Assembly: GCA_029938605.1 (NCBI GenBank)
Contig: JAOZUO010000001.1
Coordinates: forward strand, 21,905-85,904
Length of the DNA: 64,000 nucleotides
Direction: 5' to 3'
Origin: Deltaproteobacteria bacterium
Lineage (GTDB): Bacteria; Myxococcota_A; Polyangia; HGW-17; JAJRWW01
Position 1 is the first letter of the stretch. Each line of letters opens with the position of its first letter. Both the position numbers and the translations under genes were made by a program. Below, piece by piece: positions 4,954-45,645 of this stretch. Under the pieces are notes generated by a model, which saw nothing but the letters and a program-made list of their open reading frames with translations, made no database searches and was not told where the DNA came from.

Positions 4954-5316
4954 ATGCCCTCGGCCTTTGCGGAGATTTTGGCGGAGTTGGTGGGAGAGAT
5001 CCCCGGCGCCCTGGGAGCGGTCTTTCTGGACTGGGATGGCGAGGCAGTGGACCAGTTCTCCCACATCCCGCTGTTTGACATCCTGCTGGTGGGGGCGCAC
5101 TGGGGCATCGTGCTGCGACACGTAAACAATCTTCTGGAGAATCACGCCTGGGGGGCGACCCAGCTCGTGGTGCTCAATGGACCCGAGACGGACATCCTCA
5201 TCAAGCCCATCACCGAGGACTACGCTGTTGTGCTGGCCATGAAGGCCGGGCACCACCTCGCCCACGCCATCAGCGCCATGGACAGCGTCACCGCAGCCAT
5301 CGAGGGAGAGATGTGA
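4954..5316 (+). CDS. Roadblock/LC7-like protein
   Basis: MPSAFAEILAELVGEIPGALGAVFLDWDGEAVDQFS... matches the Roadblock/LC7 layout. Confidence 0.65.
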   Translation: MPSAFAEILAELVGEIPGALGAVFLDWDGEAVDQFSHIPLFDILLVGAHWGIVLRHVNNLLENHAWGATQLVVLNGPETDILIKPITEDYAVVLAMKAGHHLAHAISAMDSVTAAIEGEM

Positions 5317-5858
5317 TCCGCGGGCGGCTCCCCATTGGGTCGGCCGGGCTCACGTCGGGTGGCCTCCGGACGCTGGGTCGCCTGGTCACGCTGGGCGGCC
5401 TGGTCGCGCTGGGCGGCCTGGTCGCGCTGGGCGGCCTGGTCGCCTGTGGACCGGCCTTCCTGGTGCTGGCCAAGATCGACGACGCCATCGAGGACCACAA
5501 GGACCAGCGACTACCGCCCTATCTATGTGGCAACGCCATCTGCGACCGCGGGCGCGGAGAGAGCTGCGGGAGCTGTCCGGCTGACTGCGGCCCCTGCAGC
5601 AAAGCCGCCCCGGAGCTGGTGGCCCTCTCCCCGGAGTCGGGAAAGTCCAACCGCTGGGTGTCGATATTCGGCTCGCACCTGGGCGGCGTAGAGCGCCTGT
5701 GGATAGCCAAGGGTGGCAAGCTGATCCTGCTCCGGCATCGGCAGGTGTCCACCCGGCTGGAGTTCTTCATCCCGGTCGGCTCCCCCGGCGGCACCCTACA
5801 CGTACAGGTCCACGGCAAACGCAGCCCCACCGGGCTCAGCTATGATGTTCGTCCATAG
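5313..5858 (+). CDS. lipoprotein with short Cys motif and IPT/TIG-like domain
   Basis: Lipobox-like LVACGPAF; CGNAICDRGRGESCGSCPADCGPC; PELVALSPESGKSNRWVSIFGSHLGG (TIG-like). Confidence 0.6.
   Translation: MIRGRLPIGSAGLTSGGLRTLGRLVTLGGLVALGGLVALGGLVACGPAFLVLAKIDDAIEDHKDQRLPPYLCGNAICDRGRGESCGSCPADCGPCSKAAPELVALSPESGKSNRWVSIFGSHLGGVERLWIAKGGKLILLRHRQVSTRLEFFIPVGSPGGTLHVQVHGKRSPTGLSYDVRP
5823..5854. repeat. 32-bp direct repeat, left copy (agccccaccgggctcagctatgatgttcgtcc)
   Basis: Perfect match to 7039-7070, read directly from the sequence. Confidence 0.97.
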
Positions 5859-5979
5859 CGCGCCCGCCCCATAGGGGCCGCCAAAAAAATTACTCGATCG
5901 CCCAGAACGCCGATTCAGCCCCGCTCGACACCCTGAATCGACTATTTATATTGCATCGGGCCCTTAGCCGGCCGTTGGA

Positions 5980-6150
5980 TGTTTCATTTTCCCGCCGGAT
6001 GATTTATCTCAGCCAAATCTGAAACAAAAATAGCCCTTTGGTGTTTCACATTCCCGCCAGATGACTCATCCCAGCCAAATCTGAAACAAAAATAGCCCTT
6101 TGGTGTTCCACTTTCCCGCCAGATGAATCACCTCAACCGATTCTGAAACA
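5980..6150 (+). repeat. three-unit array of 47-bp imperfect palindromes (62-bp period)
   Basis: Units 5980-6026, 6042-6088, 6104-6150; each starts TGTTYCA and ends TGAAACA; both 15-bp spacers are aaaatagccctttgg. Confidence 0.95.
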
Positions 6151-6224
6151 AATCTCCACAATCCAAGCAACCGTCACCGGGCAGCGACGATAACCCTGTT
6201 GAGACAACGAAGCAGGAGTAGCCA

Positions 6225-6977
6225 ATGCCGCCGATCGGACACCACATCATCATTCGACTCCGCTCCGACCGGGTGCTCACCCCTACCTCGGTCCAGAGGC
6301 GCATCGCAGCGCGAGTGGTCCTGGAACAAGGACGAGTGGCCAATTTGATCAACTTCTCCATTCCCGATACCCACGCCCACATTAAGGCTGCTTGCAGCGA
6401 CGCCGCGAGCCACGAAATGGCACGACGGGTCGAGCTGAGCCTGGGCCGGCGTCTGCACCTACCTGTTGGATTCGAGCGGGCCCGGGTCAAACCGATACGT
6501 GACGTCTGGCATCACTCCAGCCTGTTTACCTATGTCTTCAACCAATATCGCCATCACGGCCTCGACTGGGATCCCTACTTCGAGGCCACGAATCTGCCCG
6601 ATCTCCTTGGGATGCGCCTGATTGGAGCCTACACCAGCGACAATGTTGGAAGGGCGCTGCCCCGCATAGGGCACAAACAGCTTCTCAAGTGGTTCGGCTG
6701 TGACACGGTTCCGCCCGCGGACAGTCCCGTGGAACGCTTACTCGACGCCGCGTCAGCCGCGGCAGCGCTCCCCTCCCTACACGGCTCCAGCCGCGACGTG
6801 CTAACCGCCCGCCGCGCCGTCGTCGAAATCGCTCACGGCCAGCTCCAACAAAACGAGCTGACAGAGCTCCTACGAATATCGCGCACGTCACTGCATCGTC
6901 TGCGTCAACGCCCCGTGGACCAACGCCTTGTGGAGGCGATACGCCTACAGCTCAGCCTGAGGGCAATGCTGAAGTAA
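6225..6977 (+). CDS. RAYT/Y1 (HUH) transposase-like protein with C-terminal HTH-like tail
   Basis: Motifs LINFSIPDTHAHIKAA (HUH-like) and FERARVKPIRDVWHHSSLFTYVFNQYRHHGLDWDPYFEATNLPDLLGMR (cf. YIHxNPVxxGLVxxPxxYxWSSxxxxLG of Y1_Tnp/RAYT); C-terminal NELTELLRISRTSLHRLRQRP HTH-like. Confidence 0.65.
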   Translation: MPPIGHHIIIRLRSDRVLTPTSVQRRIAARVVLEQGRVANLINFSIPDTHAHIKAACSDAASHEMARRVELSLGRRLHLPVGFERARVKPIRDVWHHSSLFTYVFNQYRHHGLDWDPYFEATNLPDLLGMRLIGAYTSDNVGRALPRIGHKQLLKWFGCDTVPPADSPVERLLDAASAAAALPSLHGSSRDVLTARRAVVEIAHGQLQQNELTELLRISRTSLHRLRQRPVDQRLVEAIRLQLSLRAMLK

Positions 6978-7038
6978 TTCCCAGGCATCGCAGTCTAAAC
7001 AAATACCAGTGATCTCGCGCGACGATTCCGCGCTGAGA

Positions 7039-7070
7039 AGCCCCACCGGGCTCAGCTATGATGTTCGTCC
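7039..7070. repeat. 32-bp direct repeat, right copy
   Basis: Identical to 5823-5854. Confidence 0.97.
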
Positions 7071-7312
7071 TTGAGAAACAGCTTGTGATACTCGTCATCG
7101 GACAGGTGCTTGCGTAGCAGCTTGCCCGCCCAGTCCACGGTGGCGAGGATCTCCTCCTCGGATAGACGCCCCGCCAGCACCCCGATGAGGTCGTCGTCGG
7201 TGAGCTTCTGCAGATAGGCCATCAGGGAGTGCTCGTCAGTCTCCCGGTCCACCCCGAAGGCGATCATCCCCACATCATAGTCATTCACAAAATCGTGCTT
7301 GTGTTTTGTCAT
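7052..7312 (-). CDS. small acidic protein of unknown function
   Basis: MTKHKHDFVNDYDVGMIAFGVDRETDEHSLMAYLQKLTDDDLIGVLAGRLSEEEI...; its last codons lie in the 32-bp repeat. Confidence 0.6.
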   Translation of the reverse strand: MTKHKHDFVNDYDVGMIAFGVDRETDEHSLMAYLQKLTDDDLIGVLAGRLSEEEILATVDWAGKLLRKHLSDDEYHKLFLKDEHHS

Positions 7313-13555: not shown

Positions 13556-13726
13556 TGTTTCACATTTTGCTGAGATAAATCATCCGGCGACAAAGTGAAA
13601 CATCCTGGGGCCATTATTGTTTCACATTTGGCTGAGATGAGCCATCTGGCGGGAATATGAAACAATCTGGAGCCACTTCTGTTTCACATTTGGCTGAGAT
13701 GAATCACCTGGCGGAAAAGTGAAACA
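13556..13726 (-). repeat. second three-unit array of the 47-bp palindromes (62-bp period), opposite orientation
   Basis: Units 13556-13602, 13618-13664, 13680-13726; reverse complement matches the 5980-6150 units (e.g. TGTTTCATATTCCCGCCAGATGGCTCATCTCAGCCAAATGTGAAACA). Confidence 0.95.
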
Positions 13727-45207: not shown

Positions 45208-45360
45208 GGTCCCCATATGGGACTTAACTCGCTGGTTGACAGCTCAACCCCTGAGTTCGGTCTCTATATGGGACACAACTCGCTGGTTGACAGCTCAACC
45301 CCTGAGTTCGGTCCCTATATGGGACACAACTCGCTGGTTGACAGCTCAACCCATGAGTTC
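45208..45360 (+). repeat. three 51-bp tandem repeats, each with two hairpin-forming dyads
   Basis: Unit ggtccctatatgggacacaactcgctggttgacagctcaacccctgagttc; dyads GTCCC-tatat-GGGAC and AACTC-gct-GGTTGA-cagc-TCAACC-cct-GAGTT. Confidence 0.95.
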
Positions 45361-45645
45361 GGTCCTTATTTGGCCTGCGCGGAGCAACTTGCTCCGACCC
45401 GTCCACCCCGATGTTCACCAGCCTGTCGAGCGGGTCCTTCGGGCGGAGTCGTTCCAAAACACGCTCAAGGGACAGCGATGATCGCCGACAGAATCCCAAG
45501 GAGAAGTGCGGTCACGCGGTGCGGGCTCGGTTCAATGTCAGGTCGACACCGCCGCATCATGGCGCAGAGATCGTGAGACAGCACCGCCAGCGTCACCGGC
45601 CCCGGTGCCATTGCCGGCTGCGGTCGTCATGAACACCACCAGGTG

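Follow-up and report, generated by a model that had tools for sequence, protein, structure and literature searches.

REP hairpins and the transposases that accompany them are widespread, and how such repeats spread is poorly understood. Among the described Y1 enzymes, RAYTs (TnpA-REP, class 2) are defined by a Y---NP motif (PMC6006769), and members of TnpA_Y1 subclass 1.2 measure ~148 aa, are reported mainly from Cyanobacteria and Bacteroidetes and have no associated hairpins or HTH (PMC6006769). TIRYTs (TnpA_Y1 subclass 2.1) show Y---NP together with flanking inverted repeats that carry GGGGWSAS (PMC3733652, PMC6006769). The locus described here lies in a 64-kb stretch of a Deltaproteobacteria bacterium genome (the window, to whose numbering unlabelled coordinates refer) and is probably explained as a copy of a family in which an HUH/Y1 single-stranded DNA (ssDNA) transposase gene moves with its own array of three hairpins, much like a REPtron. 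The family is an independent arrangement - many divergent gene-array pairs in one genome, a countable array of three units and an added DNA-binding domain - and invites the questions of how proteins pair with hairpins and why the units come in threes. The window itself preserves a rare and well-marked event, i.e. a transposase-array copy in a gene overlap with what reads as its target duplication still intact.

The insert and its 32-bp direct repeats

The features of the locus, followed by two further arrays from the same window, are these:

5313..5858, plus strand: lipoprotein gene (181 aa), 3' end of which received the insertion
5823..5854, plus strand: left 32-bp direct repeat, coding for the lipoprotein C-terminal end (SPTGLSYDVR-)
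5855..7038, no strand assigned: inserted segment between the repeats, 1184 bp
5870..5966, no strand assigned: truncated remnant of another, second hairpin element that is dispersed as well (~180 bp when full-length, with AGGGCCCG...CGGGCCCT ends)
5980..6026, plus strand: hairpin unit 1 (TGTTTCA...TGAAACA)
6042..6088, plus strand: hairpin unit 2, 62 bp on
6104..6150, plus strand: hairpin unit 3, 62 bp on
6225..6977, plus strand: gene for an HUH/Y1 nuclease-like protein of 250 aa with a C-terminal helix-turn-helix (H50xH52, Y103xxxQ107)
7039..7070, no strand assigned: right 32-bp direct repeat, in which the small minus-strand gene ends (final codons and stop)
7052..7312, minus strand: small conserved gene (86 aa), orthologue in the same-genus genome G001 72% identical
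13556..13726, minus strand: solo three-hairpin array of the window type, no transposase gene, intergenic
45219..45365, plus strand: solo array of three units with a period of 51 bp, of the kind attached to the L043 homologue, intergenic

The two copies of AGCCCCACCGGGCTCAGCTATGATGTTCGTCC (5823-5854 and 7039-7070) are 100% identical. The initial annotation, which had noticed perfect 32-bp repeats around a 1.2-kb insert and had assigned the left copy to the lipoprotein end and the right copy to the end of the gene finishing in KDEHHS*, proved correct on each count, its coordinates being exact. The three hairpins and the remnant of the second hairpin element are additions to it. No further match to the 32-mer occurs inside the window with up to 3 mismatches allowed (shuffles expect 0), the whole 8.56-Mb genome matches it at these two places only, and its 18-bp core was seen, among the fetched loci, only in four that cover this same place; the worry that it might be a dispersed motif can thus be laid aside. 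When the insert and one copy are removed in silico, the lipoprotein still ends in ...SPTGLSYDVRP* at an unchanged 181 aa and the small protein in ...KDEHHS*, and the two genes overlap tail-to-tail by 23 bp. Hence, the expectation that a one-copy joint would keep the RP* ending and yield overlapping 3' ends holds and, with both reading frames complete across the joined flanks, so does the idea of a clean insertion that spared both genes.

Each copy of the repeat belongs to the gene it adjoins. The C-terminal domain of the lipoprotein has paralogues in this genome, in G001 (the only same-genus genome and our sole close relative for comparison) and elsewhere in the order, and because these paralogous domains finish in the same strand (GKRSPTGLSYDV here, GKRFRSAFTYTV in one example, with further ends that resemble ERRKTTSFAYIV or GKRFRSAFTYTV), the left copy is lipoprotein sequence by origin. 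At its 3' end the small gene has CTCAAGGAGGGCCTCGACGACTGAGCCCTGG in G001 and CTCAAGGACGAACATCATAGCTGAGCCCGG in our genome, and CTGAGCCC is conserved in register at its stop codon in G001; therefore, the right copy is the small gene's own. Judged from these sequence comparisons, one 32-bp stretch would have served both gene ends before the insertion, and since the genes would then have overlapped, the repeat is best read as a target duplication, neither an att core nor a dispersed motif.

G001 lacks both the insert and the lipoprotein, and there the small gene and its upstream neighbour (961-1326 in L059) are directly convergent. This arrangement agrees with an insertion in our genome and is not the exact empty allele: of the proposal to look for an empty site in relatives, the part predicting convergent neighbours without the insert was realised, while the lipoprotein is missing as well and no site with a single 32-bp copy was found in the data, which cover one close relative. 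Two details of this neighbourhood may be added. Upstream, the lipoprotein gene overlaps its neighbour in a GTGA, its start lying on that neighbour's stop codon, and in G001 a remnant of the lipoprotein's overlapping end, GGGCTCAG, seems to survive.

Since the perfect 32-bp repeats adjoin the 3' end of a gene and both genes are preserved, they could also be att-type sites, as the initial annotation had suggested; a small circular element would then have integrated by site-specific recombination at the gene end and could excise. We regard this as very improbable given that the 32-mer belongs to the target genes and not to the element, that neither it nor a comparable non-array repeat flanks any of the other copies and that the insert encodes no tyrosine or serine recombinase nor any other site-specific recombinase gene. 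An integrative element with an att core was rejected, its core not being constant between insertions and a recombinase gene being absent. Least credible of all is an assembly artefact: the draft genome comes in 359 contigs and multicopy sequence lies inside the contig, but the closest other copy of the element is only 83-86% identical, so that reads could hardly have been confused, both junctions fit intact reading frames and the 32-bp repeat has no match elsewhere in the genome.

The 250-aa protein and its three-hairpin array

H50xH52, Y103 and Q107 of the encoded protein are invariant in an alignment of 15 homologues, throughout which Y---Q is kept (the tyrosine motif being YVFNQYRHHG here and YxLxQxxHHG as family consensus); in a wider set of 31, H52 is invariant and H50 and Y103 are nearly so. 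The AlphaFold2 model is confident (pLDDT 95.8), and its best PDB match by Foldseek is 4er8, the E. coli RAYT bound to a REP hairpin (E 1.2e-3, probability 1.00, TM 0.56 by target length), followed, among other matches, by the IS608, ISDra2 and IS200 transposases. While 4er8, 2vjv and 2xm3 all reach probabilities of ~1.00 and TM values of 0.56-0.59 by target, no E-value falls below 1e-3. Thg1-like proteins are also in the Foldseek list, with lower TM by target and without the catalytic motif, which only the Y1 matches share. By sequence, the C-terminal HTH is weakly recognisable in the homologues; Pfam, NCBIfam and PHROGs gave nothing beyond a weak HTH (no Pfam or NCBIfam transposase model matched), the PDB gave weak HTH matches only and a search of viral structures gave no convincing match. 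Membership in the Y1 family, for which we go by motif and predicted fold, is probable: the protein has the HUH motif, the single tyrosine with a downstream metal ligand and, in the model, the Y1 fold of the HUH/Y1 superfamily. Its closest copy in the genome (L002) has a gene 83% identical, and since the differences fall mainly at third codon positions (27/16/54; dN 0.092, dS 0.303), the protein is under purifying selection.

Upstream of the gene stand exactly three imperfect 47-bp palindromes with dyad symmetry, at a period of exactly 62 bp. Array and gene are the only part of the insert in common with the sister copy L002; common ends are absent, and a terminal inverted repeat of the insert was looked for and not found. 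The feet of the three units and the intervening spacers contain neither GTAG nor GTGG, and no known RNA family in Rfam matched. Most shuffles fold less well than the hairpins (16 units, z -1.6 to -6.65), and base-pair covariation within one array family is modest, its score being reached by 6/500 shuffles.

With RAYTs and their repeats (REPtrons, REPINs, BIMEs) the pair shares the Y1 HUH fold, 4er8 being the best PDB match, a gene flanked by its own hairpin family, low-copy divergent genes and gene-free repeats dispersed between genes, so that here, too, a gene-specific palindrome family is spread through the genome. It differs in having Y---Q instead of the Y---NP of class 2, no GT[AG]G foot, hairpins of ~47 nt with an internal loop that form head-to-tail trimers rather than inverted pairs, and an extra HTH. 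IS200/IS605 transposases (TnpA_Y1 subclass 1.1) likewise combine HxH with Y---Q and have hairpins associated with the gene. They are, however, ~150 aa long as opposed to 250 aa with an HTH, the insert lacks a TnpB gene, the copies here are at most 83% and mostly 40-47% identical instead of near-identical and no IS with hairpins marking both ends was seen. The Y---Q--HH signature of subclass 1.2 is present in YVFNQYRHHG, yet the greater length, the HTH and the hairpin arrays set our protein apart from it. TIRYTs resemble it as Y1 proteins of ~240 aa with a C-terminal helix-turn-helix; Y---Q, the hairpin trimers and the absence of a terminal inverted repeat distinguish the insert from subclass 2.1. 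By defining motifs the pair is neither RAYT nor typical IS200/IS605 nor subclass 1.2 or 2.1 as published. By analogy it may work like a RAYT/REP pair; it is best called a variant of the Y1 ssDNA transposases, and most likely a new one, with hairpin trimers as its presumed cargo. The hairpin-and-transposase family is apparently undescribed; in the open-access literature we found no description of hairpin trimers with a Y1-HTH protein.

Gene-array pairs and solo arrays

About ten divergent homologues occur in this genome. A profile search detected homologues in 19 of 189 sampled Myxococcota genomes, each with 1-13 divergent copies, and 39 loci came from scanning named genomes, almost all of them metagenome-assembled Myxococcota or Deltaproteobacteria. 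Many of these loci have about three head-to-tail repeats of their own, with periods of 51 to 93 bp, and the arrays differ in sequence from locus to locus, most sharing one plan (outer stem, internal loop, apical stem with a short loop). Trimers lie within 500 bp of the gene in 20 of 84 locus windows, whereas 7 of 321 local control windows contain one (p 8e-10), and they recur near the gene in ~12 further loci; near about half or more of the homologues a clear trimer was not seen. The array mostly sits just upstream of the gene, in several loci downstream or on both sides, and at L043, L076, L197, L215 and L217 similar arrays flank the gene on both sides in direct orientation.

Solo arrays without a gene total ~50 in this genome and are of several types. 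All three arrays of the 64-kb window are intergenic. Solo arrays of the window type stand at 12 sites, each with exactly three units spaced by exactly 62 bp, and two more sites hold a single unit; arrays of this type were looked for in five relatives and not found. Arrays of the L004 and L044 types are dispersed (~17 and ~15 copies), those of the L043, L005 and L007 types are few, and the L003 array finds only partial matches elsewhere in the genome. Most solo arrays have exactly three units, unrelated flanks and no gene remnant.

A position mostly just upstream of the gene, together with the dyad symmetry of the units, would also suit a mainly regulatory site (operator or attenuator) bound by the HTH, in which case the solo arrays would be decayed gene copies with no present mobilisation; those at L013-L015, which retain fragments resembling the 3' part of the gene, would fit such decay. 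We consider this quite unlikely, however, because arrays also occur downstream or on both sides, most solo arrays are remnant-free trimers in unrelated flanks, the catalytic residues are conserved and the two closest copies are under purifying selection.

Some arrays lie inside larger repeated elements with ends of their own, one of them bounded by the terminal inverted repeats GGTGTGATCGCTG; not all copies, then, moved independently. The solo arrays at L012 and L016 have 532 bp in common and therefore a longer element was copied. An element of ~700 bp at L021, L022 and L032, with terminal inverted repeats GGTGTGATCGCTG/CAGCGATCACACC, bears an array, of which L032 has one unit and L021 and L022 have three, as though a precise loss had removed two repeats. 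A repeated segment, M (L014:1740-2090 and relatives), adjoins arrays of two hairpin families and also occurs without them; it is a candidate end of solo elements.

Proposed movement of the array and the length of the duplication

If the transposase works as its motifs predict, the Y1 domain would bind its hairpins in single-stranded form, e.g. on the lagging-strand template, and would cut and rejoin single strands adjoining them, with the fused HTH domain probably helping to hold the array. Arrays copied or moved to new sites in this manner could have given rise to the solo arrays, the gene itself moving now and then. Here, the element would have entered at the point where two convergent genes overlapped by 23 bp, and 32 bp of target were duplicated, probably by fill-in of offset single-strand breaks during repair, and the event may have survived as the duplication spans nearly all of the overlap, leaving each gene with a complete end. 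Since an insertion into an overlap would spoil one of the two genes if the overlap stayed single-copy, survivors are expected only among insertions with a long duplication, and we think the 32-bp length reflects selection for keeping both genes, acting on a repair-type event with offset breaks.

Y1 transposases are not known to make target duplications, and since the other copies have none either, the 32-bp repeat is not a signature of the enzyme. Known Y1 chemistry does not account for the duplication, which accords with the early remark that one of this length is atypical of such enzymes. Among 84 loci checked (some of them duplicates), only this one has a long gene-derived, non-array direct repeat, and on that count a general tendency of the family to duplicate long stretches of target finds no support.

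That no other copy has a target duplication might also mean that the direct repeat is unrelated to the transposase, i.e. that a break in the overlap was repaired by capturing repeat-rich, gene-bearing DNA, with local duplication through template switching or end joining. Capture of this kind would suit an insert that also contains the remnant of an unrelated hairpin element and has only its array and gene region in common with L002. Array and gene are, however, intact and spaced as usual, and they are members of a multicopy family, as expected of a transposition product, and we hold such repair to be unlikely though by no means far-fetched. Returning to the transposase with its own array, it is quite possible, if still tentative, that the proteins form a distinct Y1 branch, patchy in Myxococcota, whose mobile unit is a head-to-tail trimer of double-stem hairpins bound by the HUH and fused HTH domains and which is capable of long target duplication.

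As for the second hairpin element, full copies of ~180 bp are present at L024-L036, L165 and L166. The bases adjoining its ends covary on both arms, e.g. GTCCAGAAATAA/TTATTTCTGGAC and GTCTCAAAATAA/TTATTTTGAGAC, and L166 and L160 look like a pair of occupied and empty sites. Finally, at L156:130-600 an IS110-like gene (DEDD_Tnp_IS110, weak match) starts just past the cut-off of a three-hairpin array, as if inserted in the third unit; IS110 elements that target REP sequences exist, and L156 is reminiscent of them.
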